From a bacterium (GTDB lineage: Bacteria; UBP14; UBA6098; B30-G16): 10,557 bases of DNA. The notes under the pieces were generated by a model, which did not search any database, was not told the origin of the DNA, and saw only the letters and a list, made by a program, of their open reading frames with translations. The stretch lies in the NCBI GenBank assembly GCA_027007865.1, contig JALTEE010000095.1, forward strand, positions 1 to 10,557. The letters run 5' to 3'. The translations under genes were made by a program, and so were the position numbers. This document shows, in pieces, positions 2,952 through 10,434 of the stretch; position 1 is the stretch's first letter, and each line of letters begins with the position of its first letter.

Positions 2952-4685
2952 TCAAAGTCTATTTTTCTTGCGCCAGATATCTATGGTACCGAATTTTCCC
3001 TGTTTGAATGAAGTGACGGAATCGTAATTTTCGTTCAAGAACTGAACCATATCCGTTTTTTTTCGATAACTCCATCCAGCAGGAACTGCAACAGCGGCAA
3101 TGACATCGGGCATACGATGTATAACCGGGGATTCTGTTATTAAGGCAGGGCGATTATTTTTCAAAAATTTGGCTTGTTCACTGTTGGTCAATCCATCCAA
3201 ATCCCAGATTTTTAGTTTTGGGGCAAAGAAACTTATTGCGCCTATTCTGATTGTTGCGACAGATGAACCAGCAGTGATATTTTTTGCAAGCCATTTTCCA
3301 ACTACAACTTGGTCGTGCCCGTGCATTATCATAGCTACTTCTTCATTTCGAATGTATTTGCCCAGTTGCGATTTCCACGCAATAGGTGATGAAAGTAAAA
3401 TGCCAGCCAATATGATGACAATTGCTGTGCGCCCAAATCGCAGTTTTCCTGTTTCTTTCAAATTTGATACAAAGAAATATAGCCATCCACTCAAAAGCAT
3501 CGCCACCAGTGGATAAACAGGAACGATGAATCTTCCGAAAAACATCCAATCGTTTTGAGCATATATGATAAATATCAGGCTTGCCAGAATAGGACCCGAG
3601 CAAGCTTTTATTAGAAGTTTGAATTTGTCATCAAATTCGACGCGAGAAATTGTTATCAGCGCTATAAGAAACGGTCCTCCAATGGCTACTGTCCATGGAA
3701 TAATATATCTCATACCATAGAATCCGCCAAAGTGTCCCGATGGCTTTGCAATCGCAGTGTTTGGAAGCAATGCTTTATAGTAATATAGCCTGAATATTTC
3801 GTACGCCACAATTGGTAGCAGCATTATGAATAACCCTAGAAATTCATATTTTAGCGATATTCTGCTGTTTTTCCCCCGTTTGATAGTTGTAAGATACCAT
3901 ATTATTGCGTATAACGAACCTTCGGGTCGCGTTATTCCTATAAATCCAAATGATATAGCAGCAAGTATATGCCAGTAATTACTATTTTTTATCGTTGCTT
4001 TTATTCCAAAAACTAATAATAAAGTAAAAAGGGGACCTTCAAGCCCAGCCGTGGCATAGATATGAAATCCAGGGTTGACAATCAAAATTGCCGCAGAAGA
4101 GGCGAAAACTATAATTCGCTGTTTCATATCCCGCCATTCTGCGCAAATCCATAAAATTCCTGCGAGTGTCAGAATTGAAAATAGTAGTCCGAATATCCGT
4201 GCTAAATCTGGCAGTTGTAAATGTGTTATTTTGAATGTTATTGCTAATAACAATACCCATAATGGATTGGAAAAGCCCTCTACATATTCATTATCGTTAA
4301 ATGTCAAGCCGTGACCATTTGCTAATCTATCGGCATACCTGAAACTTATGTAGGCATCATCGGTAATATGAGACCAAAGATATAGTTGGGGCAATAGCAT
4401 CAGTAATATGAATCCACAGAATATTAAAAACAGGACAATTTTATCCCTCCGAATAGCGAAATATTCTTGAGAATCGCCCAGAATAGCAGATTTATCCGCG
4501 TCGGTATCTTTTGTATTGACTTGTCTATTCATCGTTTTGCCCGCATCTACTTCTCTCATATATTGCCAATATAATATCCCAAGAGCAACCAGAAGAATAC
4601 TGAGAGTATGTTCGAGGGAAAATTTTCCCTCCGTGTTCTTTGAAAACTTTCCTGATAAAACCGAGAGTGCAATTATTATCAACAC
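2952..4685 (-). CDS. polytopic GT-C glycosyltransferase, AftB/ZomB-like
   Basis: This membrane protein (577 residues from the GTG at 4685) has about a dozen hydrophobic segments and the motif set of the AftB/ZomB-like GT-C families. The first external loop has the Asp-Asp pair (DD at 109-110, in TDDAYISFRYA) followed by VEGFSNPLW at 135-143. Further along are GLEGPLF at 214-220, TRPEG at 252-256, LLPNTAIAK at 306-314, GRFIVPVYP at 384-392, and a soluble C-terminal part with WDLDGLT at 494-500. Such enzymes transfer a sugar from a polyprenyl-phosphate carrier to an extracytoplasmic acceptor; donor and acceptor are unknown here. The N-terminus is odd. The GTG start has no ribosome-binding site, while a good site and an ATG pair at 4706/4703 open the same frame but meet TAG at 4694-4692, four codons later. 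About 80 residues, including one hydrophobic segment, precede the usual first membrane helix. It could be a nonsense mutant, a reinitiation product, or a gene truly starting near residue 43 or 52. Confidence 0.82.
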   Translation of the reverse strand: MLIIIALSVLSGKFSKNTEGKFSLEHTLSILLVALGILYWQYMREVDAGKTMNRQVNTKDTDADKSAILGDSQEYFAIRRDKIVLFLIFCGFILLMLLPQLYLWSHITDDAYISFRYADRLANGHGLTFNDNEYVEGFSNPLWVLLLAITFKITHLQLPDLARIFGLLFSILTLAGILWICAEWRDMKQRIIVFASSAAILIVNPGFHIYATAGLEGPLFTLLLVFGIKATIKNSNYWHILAAISFGFIGITRPEGSLYAIIWYLTTIKRGKNSRISLKYEFLGLFIMLLPIVAYEIFRLYYYKALLPNTAIAKPSGHFGGFYGMRYIIPWTVAIGGPFLIALITISRVEFDDKFKLLIKACSGPILASLIFIIYAQNDWMFFGRFIVPVYPLVAMLLSGWLYFFVSNLKETGKLRFGRTAIVIILAGILLSSPIAWKSQLGKYIRNEEVAMIMHGHDQVVVGKWLAKNITAGSSVATIRIGAISFFAPKLKIWDLDGLTNSEQAKFLKNNRPALITESPVIHRMPDVIAAVAVPAGWSYRKKTDMVQFLNENYDSVTSFKQGKFGTIDIWRKKNRL

Positions 4686-4807: not shown

Positions 4808-4915
4808 TAGACATTTTTCAATCTGTGCAATTTGTGTATTGGATATTATGTTCAAATTTCCTCTCTCTTAGGAAGAAGGTGTCTTACCCAAACAGGATAG
4901 GTGAGGGGCTTTTCG

Positions 4916-5027
4916 CCACCGTTCCATCGCACAAGCGTTCCGCTTGACCACCAGCCTTCGGCGCTCACAGATGTCGCTCCTGGTGGTCGCTCGGGTTATC
5001 TTGCAATCACCACCGTTCCATCGCACA
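4916..5027. repeat. 18-bp direct repeat spanning the 3' end of gene B' and the region after it
   Basis: The sequence ccaccgttccatcgcaca occurs at 5010-5027, inside the last codons of B', and again at 4916-4933 beyond its stop, 94 bases away. Between the copies lie the B' stop codon and the palindromic repeat at 4932-4988. The arrangement looks like a short duplication bracketing an inserted element, or slippage that copied the 3' end of the gene. Confidence 0.6.
4932..4988. repeat. REP-like palindromic element after gene B' (copy 2)
   Basis: Part one, aagcgttccgctt (4933-4945), is a 5-bp stem with a 3-base loop. Part two holds CTTCGGCG and is enclosed by a perfect 9-bp inverted repeat, gaccaccag (4946-4954) and ctggtggtc (4980-4988). 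The order 'CAAGCsTTCsGCTTGAC, ACC, CTTCGGCG' matches the element at the rfbB stop (2567-2598). No T-run follows on the minus strand, so it may protect the 3' end of the mRNA rather than terminate it. Confidence 0.5.
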
Positions 5028-6057
5028 CAATTTCTTCCTCGCACTCTATTGTATATAGATACAATCCTTCTGTCAAGGAATTTCCGCTATCATCGCGTCC
5101 GTCCCATCGCGCTGCGCTTTTTGCTGCTGTGCCTGTGGGAACTTTTATCGTTCTGACCTGATGCGAGTGCATATCGAATATTCTAATTGTCGCTTCTTTT
5201 TCGCCAATTCTTTCGAATGTGAACTGGGAAAAATCGTTCTTCCCGTCGCCGTTTGGGGTGAAGGGATTGGGAACGCGGGAGCAGGTGTATTCTTGCTGTG
5301 CCAGTTCGCACGCGTTTCCTCCGCCGGGAATGGCGCCGGGCTCGAGCTCGTAGCCAGGCATTCCTGCAGCAACAAACAACATATTAGAAGCAAAATGATA
5401 CTCGTCAGGATATGTAATATTTAGCAATTCCCACCAGCCTGTGGATGTGGCGAGAATTACAAATGTGCTACAATTCCCTTCCTGGCGAAAAGGATATGAT
5501 ATTGCTGCAACAGGATAGATGGTATTCCCGCCTTTTATAACATAGAAAGGATATGCATTCTCACCACAGGATATTGCTGGAGGTGTTCTCAATATAAAAG
5601 GATTAACACCATTGGTGAAAGGGGGAAAAGGTATTATTTGAAACGAATCAATACATGTCCAAAGTTCGTATCTGCAAGAATCACCTATTTCAAGCGTCGT
5701 ATGCCAACGCGGGTCCGAAAGTAGGTCATTAGCAGAGGGGAAAAACATATCGGAAGGTGTCCAGTAAACTACATTGCCCTTTTTGGCAAATTCAATTATC
5801 AGAGATTTTGTCTCGTAATCATACAAATGAGGACCGCAGGAAATCCAAAGCATATCCATATTCATAAGATTATCCCAACCTTCATCTGAAACAAAATGAG
5901 TCTCGGCTCCATGGGCGACAAGCGTGTCAAGAAAATATGACCAACACCAATCCAAATTGCAACTATTAGTGTCGTCCCACAAAAGTTTTTGTGAATGTGC
6001 GAATGCGTTGAAAAAAAGTAAATTCACCAATATTACAATAAGAATATATTTTTTCAT
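4996..6057 (-). CDS. exported protein with GATase/DUF4350-like N-domain and FlgD-like C-domain (B')
   Basis: Paralogue of the gene at 6644-7717. The start is set at the second of two ATGs (6057), which has GGAG seven bases upstream; this gives 353 residues. A signal peptide (1-20, ending FFNAFA) is followed by a domain beginning KLLWDD with DTLVAHGAETHFVSDEGW (44-61) and MNMDMLWIS (65-73). That pattern resembles GATase-like/DUF4350 Rossmann folds, though I see no catalytic Cys-His-Glu set. Shared with the paralogue are DLLSD (111-115), TNGV (148-151), SCGEN (163-167) and EGNCSTFV (193-200). The C-terminal 98 residues (256-353) form a FlgD-Ig/CHU_C-like domain starting EYTCSRVPNPFTPNGDGKND and ending GLYLYTIE...VVIAR. 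Domains of this kind act as sorting or cell-surface modules in FCB bacteria. It starts 21 bases after the A' stop, so the two are probably co-transcribed. The precise function is unknown. Confidence 0.8.
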   Translation of the reverse strand: MKKYILIVILVNLLFFNAFAHSQKLLWDDTNSCNLDWCWSYFLDTLVAHGAETHFVSDEGWDNLMNMDMLWISCGPHLYDYETKSLIIEFAKKGNVVYWTPSDMFFPSANDLLSDPRWHTTLEIGDSCRYELWTCIDSFQIIPFPPFTNGVNPFILRTPPAISCGENAYPFYVIKGGNTIYPVAAISYPFRQEGNCSTFVILATSTGWWELLNITYPDEYHFASNMLFVAAGMPGYELEPGAIPGGGNACELAQQEYTCSRVPNPFTPNGDGKNDFSQFTFERIGEKEATIRIFDMHSHQVRTIKVPTGTAAKSAARWDGRDDSGNSLTEGLYLYTIECEEEIVCDGTVVIAR

Positions 6058-6078
6058 CATAATTCTCCAACACAGCAT

Positions 6079-6627
6079 CTACCATGTGACTGTCGCTATT
6101 ACCCACCAATAATTTGCAGTTCCCTCGGATTGCACAATTATCCCATGGCTGTCAGGAATGGTCATACTTGATATAGATTCAATATATCCGTCATCTGCAA
6201 CTGTGACAGTTACCGAACCTGTCGATATATTTCTAATAGCATATATTCGTCCTTCACAAGTGGTTGCATTTGGCAATGTCACAGTAATTGGAGCATCAGC
6301 AAGAATTGTAAAATTTTCTTCTCCGATGGTTCCAGCACTTAGGTCAATGTCGGTTGATCTTCTCAAAAATTTAGTAGCCATAGAGCCATCGAACTGCAAT
6401 GTGGAGTTTGGCGTTGGGTTGTTTATTCCGAGCTTTCCGGGGTGGTCTTCGCTGAAGAATGCGGCGGTATAATTGTGTGGGACAACCACATTATTTCCGA
6501 AAGCATAGGAAAAGTCGCCATCGACTTTGTTTTTGCGACCACCTGTATTTGCAATCTGTGCTCTCATTTCGGGTTATGCAAATATAAGCGCAAAAGCGAT
6601 ACACATAACAACCATCGTATATCTCAT
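6079..6627 (-). pseudogene. truncated, interrupted paralogue of the beta-roll surface protein (A')
   Basis: A ribosome-binding site (GGAGGG, 6637-6632) and ATG ATG (6630-6625) open a frame encoding a signal peptide, MRYTMVVMCIAFALIFA. It stops at TAA (6576-6574), right where signal peptidase would cut. The same frame resumes after two codons at ATG 6567 and runs 162 codons to TAG at 6081-6079. The first part of that stretch (GGRKNKVDGDFSYAFGNN, then HNYTAAFFS) aligns with residues 815-845 of the large protein at 7735-10434 (AGGNNNTVSGDYSFAFGNG, NNYEAAFYS). The N-terminal domain and all earlier repeats are missing. The remaining tail (TLQFDGSMATKFLRR..., ending YWWVIATVTW) differs from that of the large protein. 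Most likely an internal deletion plus a nonsense codon. Reinitiation at 6567 would give a protein without export signal, and no ribosome-binding site precedes it. It lies 13 bases after B and 21 before B'. Confidence 0.72.
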
Positions 6628-6643
6628 CATTCCCTCCGGTTTT

Positions 6644-7717
6644 TCACCTCGCAATCACCACGCTCCCATCGCACACAATTTCTCCCTCGCACTCTATCGT
6701 ATATAGATACAATCCTTCTGTCAAGGAATTTCCGCTATTATCGCGCCCGTCCCATCGCGCTGCGCTTTTCGCCGCTGCGCCAGCGGGAACTTTTATCGTT
6801 CTGACCTGATGCGAGTGCATATCGAATATTCTAATCGTCGCTTCCTTCTCGCCGATTCCATCGAATGTGAACTGGGAAAAATCGTTTTTCCCGTCGCCGT
6901 TGGGGGTGAAGGGGTTGGGAGCGCGGGAGCAGGTGTATTCTTCTGGTTCTATTGTAAAAGTAGTCTCTGCGAATGCACAGGGGTCGAATTCATAGCCAGG
7001 AACACCAGTAAGTGTGAGGAATATATTTCTTGCAAAAATCCATGTATCACCGAAACCTGGTAGAGAAGTAGAACCATCTTCAAAAGTATGATTTCCCGCG
7101 AGAACAAATACAAAAGAACTGCAATTACCCTCCTCGAGAAATGGAAATGATATGGCTCCTACTATTTCATTTGGAGAGTTGTCAGCAAAAACAAGTGGAT
7201 AACAATTTTCGCCACAGGATAGTAATTGTGGTGCATATAGCACAATTCCATGAACGCCGTTTGTAATCGGTGGCAATTCAACAAAAAGGCTGCAGAATAC
7301 TCCTCTACTTTCATAAGTGCCATATATAAGTTTTATAGAAGTTTCCCATCCATAATCCGATAGCAGGTCGTCTATTACATAAGAAGTAGTGTCAATGCAT
7401 TCATTTCTTATAGGAGCCATAAAGATTTTACCTCCATATCTGCAGTAAGATTGCAAAATCGCTTTTTCGGTTGGAGAATAGTAATCACCAGGTATTGGAG
7501 ATTGGAGCCATACCACATCCATATTCATTATATTTCCCCACCCTTCAACAGAAGTGTAATGAACCGATATTCCATAAGTAGCAAGTGTGTCCATAATGCA
7601 TTGCCAGTAATGGTATGGGTCATGCTCATCCCTTATGTCATCGTATAGTATATCAATGGGAAATACATTTTGTCCATATATAACAAGAAAAAATAGAATG
7701 ACAATATATTTAACCAT
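6644..7717 (-). CDS. exported protein with GATase/DUF4350-like N-domain and FlgD-like C-domain (B)
   Basis: This 357-residue protein has a signal peptide (about 1-20, MVKYIVILFFLVIYGQNVFP). Its N-terminal domain starts DILYDD (22-27), followed by MDTLATYGISVHYTSVEGW (42-60), NIMNMDVVWLQSP (62-74), a SPTEKAIL helix (81-88) and YGGKIFMAP (94-102). This is the rhythm of GATase1-like/DUF4350 domains in which a flexible 'gate' is predicted from sequence, but no clear nucleophile elbow is present. Conserved with the paralogue at 4996-6057 are DLLSD (117-121), ITNGV (151-155), SCGEN (167-171) and EEGNCSSFVF (195-204). The C-terminal FlgD-Ig/CHU_C-like domain spans 260-357, ending TEGLYLYTIE...VVIAR. 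The gene begins 17 bases after the large beta-roll gene, has no clear ribosome-binding site of its own, and so probably depends on translational coupling. Role unknown; I infer a surface or secreted partner of the beta-roll protein. Confidence 0.82.
   Translation of the reverse strand: MVKYIVILFFLVIYGQNVFPIDILYDDIRDEHDPYHYWQCIMDTLATYGISVHYTSVEGWGNIMNMDVVWLQSPIPGDYYSPTEKAILQSYCRYGGKIFMAPIRNECIDTTSYVIDDLLSDYGWETSIKLIYGTYESRGVFCSLFVELPPITNGVHGIVLYAPQLLSCGENCYPLVFADNSPNEIVGAISFPFLEEGNCSSFVFVLAGNHTFEDGSTSLPGFGDTWIFARNIFLTLTGVPGYEFDPCAFAETTFTIEPEEYTCSRAPNPFTPNGDGKNDFSQFTFDGIGEKEATIRIFDMHSHQVRTIKVPAGAAAKSAARWDGRDNSGNSLTEGLYLYTIECEGEIVCDGSVVIAR
6647..6940 (-). repeat. near-identical 294-bp C-terminal module shared by B and B'
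   Basis: The last 98 codons of B (6647-6940) and of B' (4999-5292) encode proteins identical at 90 of 98 positions by my alignment, with long identical DNA stretches (for example around gacctgatgcgagtgcata). The N-terminal parts of the two genes share only scattered motifs. The module also looks richer in G+C than the 5' halves. This is a direct repeat about 1.65 kb apart and a potential recombination site. Confidence 0.85.
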
Positions 7718-7734
7718 TTCAAGGTAATGAAATA

Positions 7735-10434
7735 TCAGTTAAGGTTTTCCCAGGTAACTGGCGCTGTACTTGTGCACACCTTTAACTTGTTGTCGGTAGA
7801 ATCGTAGTAGATCATTCCAACTTGAGGTGACGATGGCGGATTAGGTCTCGGCACCAGGTATAGCACATCGGTAATTTTCACCACACCGGGATTTGAAGTG
7901 CTATAAAATGCGGCTTCATAGTTATTGCTCACATTCACACCGTTTCCGAAAGCGAAAGAATAATCGCCGGATACTGTATTATTGTTTCCGCCTGCTATGG
8001 CAGAGTATGATGCGGAATCAATTGTGTTTGAAAACCCGCCGGCAATTACATTGCAGCTATCATCTTCACCTCCCAATATAAGATTCTCCCATCCGCCAGA
8101 ACAAGTTGAATATCTAGCGTCAACATCATTGTCATGACCGCCAGCAACAGTAGAACCGTATTGGGTTACATCATTGTAATCGCCGCCGCCAACGGTAACA
8201 TCTCTTGCGGTTGCTGTATTAGCGTATCCGCCTCCTATAGTAGAATAAAGACCGCTAGCGACATTTCCCAATCCTGCTGTAGCATGTCCACCACCACCAA
8301 TTGTTGAATAGTTACCACTTGCGGTGTTATTTATTCCGCCTCCAATTGTGCTATTTATCCCACTTGCATTATTATTATTTCCGCCACCTATGAAACTACT
8401 ATCACCACTGGCATTATTGTTCATTCCACCGAAAACTGCTGCTGTATAACCGCCAGCTCTATTTGACATTCCGCCGCCAATTATAGAATAGCTTTGTCCA
8501 ATTATGTTATCATATCCCCCACAAATTGAAGAGTAATCAGCATTAGGTCGTATGAAATTATCTTTCCCACCGCCGATGAAGCCATAAGCGGCGCTGTCGG
8601 CGTTTTCCAATCCCCCGCCGATGGCGGAGTATTTTTCGGTGATGGTGTTGTCGTATCCACCCGCGATGACCACAGCGGTGTCGGAAGCATCGTCGCCTGC
8701 GGTATTTAAATAGCCAGCAAAAACACCGCTATATATGGAATAGGTAGCGTTTTTAAGCCCACCTCCAATGGAGCTATAATCTTCAAAAACCTGGTTTTTT
8801 TCGCCCCCTGCAATAGTTGATTTATCTGCGTTGCTGTAAATGACATTACTCATTCCTCCACCTACAAATCCGTATGCTGAACTGTCTGCGTTTGCTTCAC
8901 CGCCGCCGATTGTGCCGTAAATTCCGTTGATATAATTTTTTCCCCCTCCGGATATAGTCGAATTTGAAGCTAAAGCACTGTTGCTTATTCCACCGCCGAT
9001 AAAAACAGCGTAATCTCCCGAGGCATCACCTGCCGTGTTTCCTCGACCACCGACAAGCGCACCATAATATGAATTTACTATGTTCGAAGTCCCGCCACCT
9101 ATGGTAGTATAATAAGATTGAACTTTATTGTAGTATCCTCCGCCTACGAATGATGCTACTCCATTTGCTTCGTTTGAAAAACCACCCGATATTGCGGAGG
9201 AATATCCAGTTGCTTTGTTTCCGGAACCAGACCCGATAAATGAATACCAGTTGGTTATTTGATTGTTTTCACCGGAACCGATAAAATTTTTTGTACCATT
9301 CACATAATTGTTGCTTCCGGTACCTATTATATTGTAGTCGCTGCAAATTTTGTTTCCCGCACCCGCACCGATGATGCTGTAATTATAACCCTTCGAATCT
9401 TCCATCTCTTCGAATTGGGCGCGGATAATTTCAGCAAGACTGTCATCGTCGATTCCAGCCAGTATGGAAGATAGGTCTGCTGCTGATGATGTGCAGGAAT
9501 CTCCACCATCGAATATTCTATTTGTGCTTCCACCGATAATTGCACTGTAATCCGCATCTTCGATTCTGTTCAATTTTCCTGCGCCGATAAAGGAAGAAAC
9601 TCCTCGAACCTTGTTTTTTTCGCCGCCACTCACAGTAGAATAATCGTATGCTGCAACATTCCCAGCTCCGCCGCCAACGGTGCAGTATGCGTAATTTTGT
9701 CCGCTCGTTCCTGTCGTGCAGGCAACACCGATATTTATTTGAGTGGAATCTTTCGTTCCATATAAAATATCTTTAGCATCGCCTTTCGCTATGCCCTGCA
9801 TCGCTTCGGTGCAGTTGGCATCTTTTGCTGTGTATAAAACCTGGGAATGCTTTATCCACTGAACACAGCCCGATGTATCGTCGGTTACAGCATCTATGCC
9901 CCCTTTGTCATTCCCGGATGCAGAAATTTCGATGATATTGCTGTCGCTGTCAAAATCCACATCGATGCCATTCCCGCCAGATAAGTAAAAGAACGGTTTT
10001 TCCTGCGTTATCTCGATTTTGTTATGTCCACTGGTGCCGAGAATAAATATTTTAGACAATCCATTATCGGATTCGAGAGATATCCCGTCCGAACCTGTGC
10101 CAATTTTATATCTAACTTTTATGCTGCTATCATCGATGTTCATTTCGAGATAATAACCATCGGAAAAGTCCACCACGGGCAAAAAAGGAATATCTTTGCC
10201 CAACTCGATGTTGAAGCGCCCATCTTCGAATTTTACATCGTTAAAATTTTCCTCCCAAACAGCTCGCTTGCTATCACGGGAATTGTAAATCTTAACGGAA
10301 AGGTTATGTTTCCCCTCGATTGGCTGTCTATTGTCCGGATTGAAAATAACGCCATTATATTTTACAATTCCATCGTTTGTGGCGAACAAAAAACTGAAAA
10401 AACAAATAATTGCAATAAAATATGCGAGTTTCAT
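7735..10434 (-). CDS. large exported beta-roll repeat protein, YadA-head-like (A)
   Basis: The 899-residue protein starts at an ATG with GGAGG six bases upstream and has a signal peptide (MKLAYFIAIICFFSFLFA, 1-18). Residues 21-105 form a small beta domain (KYNGVIFNPDNRQPI, then NLSVKIYNS, AVWEENF, DGRFNIELG, DGYYLEMNI), of the kind that often precedes such repeats in surface and tail-fibre-like proteins. A linker with glycine-rich turns follows. From about 245 to 845 run short repeats of the type TIGGGxxNxASGxYS, related to the left-handed beta-roll of trimeric autotransporter heads. The C-terminus (850-899, with IYYDSTDNKLKVCTS and TWENLN) is soluble. There is neither a YadA-type beta-barrel anchor nor the FlgD-like domain found in B, so it cannot be a classical autotransporter; how it reaches or stays on the surface is unknown. 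Trimerisation and adhesion are inference from the family. First gene of the A-B-A'-B' run. Confidence 0.85.
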   Translation of the reverse strand: MKLAYFIAIICFFSFLFATNDGIVKYNGVIFNPDNRQPIEGKHNLSVKIYNSRDSKRAVWEENFNDVKFEDGRFNIELGKDIPFLPVVDFSDGYYLEMNIDDSSIKVRYKIGTGSDGISLESDNGLSKIFILGTSGHNKIEITQEKPFFYLSGGNGIDVDFDSDSNIIEISASGNDKGGIDAVTDDTSGCVQWIKHSQVLYTAKDANCTEAMQGIAKGDAKDILYGTKDSTQINIGVACTTGTSGQNYAYCTVGGGAGNVAAYDYSTVSGGEKNKVRGVSSFIGAGKLNRIEDADYSAIIGGSTNRIFDGGDSCTSSAADLSSILAGIDDDSLAEIIRAQFEEMEDSKGYNYSIIGAGAGNKICSDYNIIGTGSNNYVNGTKNFIGSGENNQITNWYSFIGSGSGNKATGYSSAISGGFSNEANGVASFVGGGYYNKVQSYYTTIGGGTSNIVNSYYGALVGGRGNTAGDASGDYAVFIGGGISNSALASNSTISGGGKNYINGIYGTIGGGEANADSSAYGFVGGGMSNVIYSNADKSTIAGGEKNQVFEDYSSIGGGLKNATYSIYSGVFAGYLNTAGDDASDTAVVIAGGYDNTITEKYSAIGGGLENADSAAYGFIGGGKDNFIRPNADYSSICGGYDNIIGQSYSIIGGGMSNRAGGYTAAVFGGMNNNASGDSSFIGGGNNNNASGINSTIGGGINNTASGNYSTIGGGGHATAGLGNVASGLYSTIGGGYANTATARDVTVGGGDYNDVTQYGSTVAGGHDNDVDARYSTCSGGWENLILGGEDDSCNVIAGGFSNTIDSASYSAIAGGNNNTVSGDYSFAFGNGVNVSNNYEAAFYSTSNPGVVKITDVLYLVPRPNPPSSPQVGMIYYDSTDNKLKVCTSTAPVTWENLN
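7900..9702 (-). repeat. beta-roll repeat array inside gene A
   Basis: About 600 codons of degenerate 14-16-residue repeats built on [ST]-[IVF]-x-G-G-G/A-x-x-N-x-x-x-x-x-Y-S. The recurring DNA words are short, such as ccgccgccaat on the plus strand. The array is interrupted at residues 308-350 by a non-repeat insertion, and several units are longer with GD.ASxD or NADSxAYG inserts. Units near the C-terminal end (residues 670-740) are the most regular, matching NNNASGxxSxIGGG. Confidence 0.85.

Follow-up and report, generated by a model that had tools for sequence, protein, structure and literature searches.

A candidate fibre-plus-partner surface module, present twice in tandem on a bacterial contig

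Background and summary

Four minus-strand genes on a bacterial contig are best explained as a diversifying surface module of two secreted proteins, a fibre and its partner, present twice in tandem. We give this reading a probability of about 55%. The observations behind it are the gene order, the homologies, the recurrence of the pair in relatives and the presence of SprA in the genome.

The first protein, A, would be an adhesive fibre similar to the mosaic adhesive trimer (MAT) fibres. Behind its signal peptide, an N-terminal domain close to the cell surface would lead into a beta-roll stalk that ends in an exchangeable tip. B, the second protein, would reach the surface separately: its C-terminal domain would take it across the outer membrane by the type IX secretion system (T9SS), and there it would display a GIFT domain without catalytic activity, which most likely binds a glycan or a protein. 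The two genes are probably co-transcribed, and their products probably act on a common target outside the cell. The fibre of the second copy lacks both stalk and N-terminus, and its export is improbable. The two copies would have separated long ago, with gene conversion as the probable reason why their sorting domains remained similar.

The building blocks are known. Their combination into a fibre-plus-partner surface module is real and recurring, and was not found described. In the open-licence literature, no paper was found that joins the MAT fibre with type IX secretion or with a GIFT domain, and the MAT paper itself (PMC10769870) names neither 'type IX secretion' nor 'GIFT domain'. That paper also leaves open which surface element the N-terminal domain of the fibre binds. 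MAT-type fibres in a SprA-bearing phylum, tightly paired with a predicted secreted GIFT protein, provide a concrete candidate partner, and the truncated fibre/partner units are a concrete place to look for tip exchange. That relatives keep the pairing suggests a rapidly changing surface module, whose function is putative.

The four genes

The window is an entire contig (G000:C95) of 10,557 nucleotides, from a draft genome of 2.21 Mb in 530 contigs that is 74.5% complete. The ORF listing has the series A, B, A' and B' on the minus strand, as are all parts of these genes given below. Gene A, for the MAT-like fibre protein, is at 7735-10434 (899 aa). It is followed after 17 nt by gene B at 6644-7717 (357 aa), which has a GIFT domain and a T9SS type-B-like sorting domain. 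A' is a 162-codon ORF at 6079-6567, holding the last beta-roll repeat and a tip unlike that of A. B', again with GIFT and sorting domain, is at 4996-6078 (360 aa). Its likely start is the MMKK methionine at 6060, and with this start, which is our choice, the A'-B' spacing is 18 nt.

A first-pass annotation had described an A-B-A'-B' alternation with gaps of 13-21 nt. The order stands, but the second unit is not intact, since A' is a 162-codon piece. The gaps hold only if A' starts at 6630, which is 13 nt past B, and not for the A' ORF at 6567.

The frame from 6630 has 18 signal-peptide-like codons (6630-6577, judged by eye), which are followed by an in-frame TAA at 6576-6574; the whole stretch is 6574-6630, and the A' ORF restarts at 6567. 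No export signal was seen in the 162-codon ORF itself. A' and A do align at the last repeat as had been stated, with 48% identity over 54 aa. As a second beta-roll fibre, A' does not hold up: it keeps that last repeat only, plus a different tip. The open frame of A' is beyond chance, because none of 5000 base shuffles was stop-free over the 162 codons, and because its tip has a homologue in another family, the A of G015:C137 (37% over 99 aa, E 4e-17).

The fibre protein

Protein A starts with a signal peptide (by eye) and a MAT_N-like domain; about 30 beta-roll motifs follow, and a short tip ends the protein. The MAT_N-like domain (residues 9-113, 10096-10410) was found with a profile built here. 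The motif count is 30 head motifs under a loose pattern, and the tip spans approximately residues 856-899 (7738-7869), as judged from tip comparison. No Pfam family matches A at E <= 1. A YadA-type trimeric autotransporter was considered and rejected, as this search gave no C-terminal YadA anchor.

The NCBIfam family NF053851 describes the N-terminal domain of Bdellovibrio MAT proteins. It matches A with E 5.6e-4 for the whole protein and E 1.3e-5 (25 bits) for the N-terminal piece alone, under the curated cut-off of 60 bits. Across the loci of the phylum it matches 38 of 39 MAT_N-like domains at E <= 0.01, with a best value of 1.3e-11; these 39 scored at least 90 bits with the profile built here, and two of 41 (33 and 14 bits) were dropped. 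By sequence comparison, the N-terminal domain of A is homologous to the MAT domain, even though the A of the window is below the curated cut-off. A PDB search with a model of the MAT_N domain (39 rows, mean pLDDT 83) gave no clear match.

According to the MAT paper, the fibres of Bdellovibrio bacteriovorus have a beta-rich domain of about 130 aa directly after the signal peptide, which sits next to the cell surface (PMC10769870). A appears to share this layout, and also the long stalk, the exchangeable C-terminal tips and the several paralogues per genome reported there (PMC10769870). A differs from the Bdellovibrio fibres in its stalk, which is built from GG-N beta-roll-like repeats, and in being followed by a gene for a T9SS-type partner; there is no sign of predation here. 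The same paper speaks of tip swapping as predators diversify their fibres (PMC10769870).

Variable C-terminal tips on a common architecture are present in the A genes too. Ten A genes or remnants carry five tip types, mutually unrelated at E <= 1e-4, and some of these types are also found on other MAT_N proteins. A shares its tip type with the remnant of an A gene at G005:C155 (59% over 56 aa, E 9e-20).

The partner protein

GIFT domains are best known from eukaryotic cilia and glycosylation complexes. Here, one is part of a predicted surface protein of a bacterium. Among solved folds, the nearest found for B is the GIFT domain of IFT52: approximately residues 20-246 of B (6980-7660) align with 5fms_B (22-246) and 5fmr_A (20-255), so that B has the IFT52/OST48-type GIFT fold. 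The earlier description of a DUF4350/GATase-like fold was correct in outline, with the IFT52 GIFT domain as the nearest solved structure. Unlike IFT52, OST48/Wbp1 and GldG (the last of which was itself outside the comparison), B is short and predicted to be secreted, with a signal peptide (by eye) and a T9SS C-terminal domain.

An active class I glutamine amidotransferase was rejected as a candidate. Positions 95-103 after the GG motif, which by the usual layout of the fold would be the nucleophile elbow, are free of cysteine in all 12 rows of the alignment.

The sorting domain of B is at 6644-6946. CHU_C matches B and B' with 38.8 and 38.5 bits (cut-off 27; E 1e-9 for B'), and TIGR04131 scores 34.1 and 32.6 bits, just under its cut-off of 35. 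The B profile scores B' at 334 bits, with B' itself being among the rows from which the profile was built.

In its C-terminal domain match, and in having SprA in the genome, B resembles T9SS type B cargo (TIGR04131 / CHU_C). The search for a translocon covered SprA and PorP/SprF. SprA_N scores above cut-off in G000 and in 14 of the 17 genomes of the phylum, versus 0 of 14 controls, which places a translocon component in the same genome as B. PorP/SprF stays below cut-off in 17 of 17, and unlike for known type B cargo, there is no PorP/SprF match (E <= 0.001) on the window contig or on the A-B contig of the sister species G001. On three other contigs (G003:C22, G006:C86 and G002:C69), sorting-domain matches are adjoined by a PorP/SprF-like match, which is not the case at the A-B locus.

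Pairing across relatives

The survey covers 17 genomes of the phylum, 11 of which are matched by the B profile. Overall this profile matches 15 of 386 genomes, where the four outside the phylum match weakly. What is called a 'short' B here is a set of 11 genes in 7 genomes. Seven are complete ORFs of 357-452 aa with a sorting domain, and L054 and L057 are cut near or in that domain. Those of G005 (283 aa) and G002 (151 aa) are interrupted earlier by a contig end, and their profile score and location put them in this class. L058 has a weak TIG-like stretch between the GIFT and sorting domains.

Directly upstream of 10 of the 11 short B genes there is an A gene or an A-tail remnant. The remnant in G003 has 52% identity over 50 aa (E 3e-9). 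The eleventh gene, G016:C175, has an unclear upstream match and was counted as a miss. Six genomes have this A-B order, and a seventh has it as a remnant. An A is directly upstream of 0 of 11 other GIFT-domain ORFs (Fisher p 3.4e-5 against short B) and of 7 of 223 other ORFs in these loci (p 2e-12), p-values that overstate the case because the loci were picked for their A or B matches and the copies share ancestry, so that the counts are not independent. Without G005, G002 and L120 (a cut 253-aa ORF among the 11 other GIFT ORFs), the figures are 8 of 9 against 0 of 10 (p 1.2e-4, with the same overstatement). L122, L123 and L124, which are cut or too short, were left out of the upstream test.

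In the reverse direction, 7 of 20 repeat-rich fibre genes are followed by a B. A repeat-rich fibre gene is defined by a loose motif count of at least 5 and an uncut 3' end. This excludes ORFs cut by a contig end and the short A pieces of the window (A') and of G005. The 935-aa ORF of L121 was excluded too, as it lacks MAT_N and looks like an unrelated protein, although its downstream neighbour is a long GIFT ORF. The idea that A and B form a pair is therefore borne out from the side of B (10/11 versus 0/11), but not from the side of A (7/20).

MAT_N is present in four of the ten A neighbours of B, namely A of the window, G015:C137, G016:C88 and G002 (where the start is cut by the contig end). 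It is absent in the other six: A' of the window, A and A' of G001, G015:C102, G005 and the G003 remnant. An exportable A is thus kept less often than B, and in these six of ten pairs, where A is without its N-terminal part, B seems to persist without an exportable partner.

Divergence of the copies

B and B' are 49% identical over their whole length, and their C-terminal modules, 1648 nt apart, are 92% identical over 295 nt (5000-5294 in B', 6648-6942 in B). This agrees with the first-pass annotation, which noted overall similarity with a nearly identical C-terminal module. It had also spoken of a tandem duplication. A simple recent one is excluded, because the GIFT domains of B and B' are only 32% identical, versus 92% for the sorting domains.

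Other genomes show the same pattern. GIFT-domain identity between B and B' is 37% in G001, it is 30-40% between the short B of the sister species, and it is around 26-48% among short copies. Sorting-domain identity within a genome is 92% in G000, 99% in G001 and 92% between the two copies of G015, and 67-75% between sister species. The sorting-domain dS is 0.29, 0.15 and 0.33 for G000, G001 and G015, and dN is 0.038, 0.004 and 0.031. These values suggest that gene conversion has homogenised the sorting domains under constraint.

In their GIFT domains, the long-B orthologues of G000 and G001 are still 83% identical, which means that short B genes diverge or get replaced unusually fast. The A stalk of these two genomes is 60-82% identical over residues 181-660, then 35-43%, and 22% at the tip.

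If tip and partner changed together, similar tips should come with similar B proteins, and a check of such co-variation had been proposed. It was not found. Among 10 genes (G016:C175 is without a tip), 6 of 45 B gene pairs have homologous A tips. Mean GIFT identity is 30.9% in these six and 33.7% in the other 39 (p 0.12, in the wrong direction), so tip type does not predict GIFT-domain similarity. One pair fits: A'-B' of the window and A-B of G015:C137, with GIFT domains 39% identical and grouped in the B tree (94/92). The other five have dissimilar GIFT domains (27-31%).

Several things count against the module reading: 13 of the 20 repeat-rich fibre genes have no B behind them, the MAT_N and TIGR04131 matches of the window are under the curated cut-offs, A tip and B GIFT domain do not co-vary, B seems to persist without an exportable A in six of ten pairs, and the pairing counts come from related copies in loci chosen for A or B matches.

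Competing explanations

Another reading, possible if rather unlikely, is that the last A stalk repeats through the B GIFT domain are swapped as a unit. Stalk repeats and B sorting domain could then serve as recombination arms, and truncated A'-B' units as silent donors. Rhs and CDI systems offer a parallel: they have 5'-truncated orphan modules that act as silent donors, and their truncated downstream modules combine a variable 3' end with a second gene, like A'-B'. Unlike in those orphan cassettes, no toxin or immunity gene was recognised here, and the second gene encodes a predicted exported protein. Sister species have similar stalks but differ at the 3' end of A and in the GIFT domain of B (30-40%); similarity rises again in the sorting domain (67-75%), while the long-B orthologue holds its GIFT identity. 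Truncated A pieces immediately precede a B gene in G000, twice in G001, and in G015:C102 and G005, and G003 retains a bare remnant. In G015:C137 a further truncated A, interrupted by the contig end, comes after B. The one fitting pair named above shares its tip type and B group across families. However, A and A' have no near-identical DNA at the stalk arm, and the five dissimilar pairs are contrary to tip and B moving together. The comparison also involves sister species only, where quicker 3' divergence would give the same picture. A full exchange system, in which the 3' end of A and the ligand-binding part of B would be one variable cassette between conserved arms with truncated units as silent donors, is slightly more doubtful still.

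Plain duplication with decay is on a par with the swapped unit, unlikely but worth weighing. On this view B and B' function by themselves, A' and the remaining truncated A pieces are decaying relics, and the genes are adjacent because they descend from one ancestral operon. It would fit the loss of the N-terminal part of A in 6 of 10 pairs (one a bare remnant), the TAA in A', and the 11 short B frames, all of which are open as far as the contigs reach. But the truncated A pieces are themselves open for long, at 991 and 500 codons in G001 and 162 in G000. Adjacency was also kept despite the low GIFT identity among short copies and despite replaced A tips.

The first-pass annotation had suggested that B anchors or sorts A, which has no C-terminal sorting signal of its own. 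This is improbable. There is a T9SS signal on B and none was found on A, the gaps are tight, and SprA is present. Yet A has its own MAT-type N-terminal domain, which is surface-adjacent according to PMC10769870. Most repeat-rich fibre genes have no B neighbour, co-variation is absent, and B persists beside A pieces without a signal peptide, the N-terminus being lost in 6 of 10. B as the anchor of A is weakly supported. Retention of B beyond exportable A weakens the anchor idea further, and leaves decay or silent cassettes.

An assembly or binning artefact, in which draft-genome repeats joined fibre fragments to B genes, is very improbable: the window genome is a fragmented draft, three relatives are metagenome assemblies and fibre repeats are hard to assemble, but six genomes show the same order and a seventh a remnant of it, and the records of the three relatives stem from different assemblies. 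A phage or plasmid origin is not supported, as no B-profile match or A relative was found in viral_contigs and no B match in plasmids, searches of limited sensitivity.

Other fibre genes and surroundings of the locus

MAT_N fibre genes in other loci have various downstream neighbours. Por_Secre_tail proteins follow in L101, L108, L132 and L110, an LRR protein in L096, a beta-propeller-repeat protein in L095 and a C10 peptidase in L034. The fibre gene of L112 has a neighbour without a family match. In L100 a VWA-like protein follows, just above the integrin-beta VWA cut-off, and likewise in L105, below that cut-off. The proteins of 682-711 aa behind the MAT_N genes of L100, L104 and L105 look alike by eye.

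The arrangement is doubled in L110 (G016:C474, 4441-10382), a second tandem of the A-X-A-X kind. It has two MAT_N fibre genes, the first with Peptidase_S74. The X proteins are 180-181 aa long, start 10-11 nt after each fibre gene and are near-identical by eye; the first has Por_Secre_tail.

Elsewhere in the window, the minus strand encodes a 577-aa membrane protein (by eye) at 2952-4685, which weakly matches an arabinofuranosyltransferase model (E 2.8e-9, far under cut-off). Near it is a putative dTDP-glucose dehydratase gene at 1587-2582, also read by eye. Two very short intergenic stretches on the minus strand, 2798-2818 and 4913-4933, are like the end of the B sorting domain (EGEIVCD, CDGTVA).

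Finally, a 13-base element with inverted ends (AAGCGGAACGCTT) is at 4933-4945. G000 has 37 copies of it and G001 has 17, and none of the 15 other genomes of the phylum has more than one; a control pattern gave 0. The element is a genus-specific REP-like repeat, which adjoins the A-B locus in both species.
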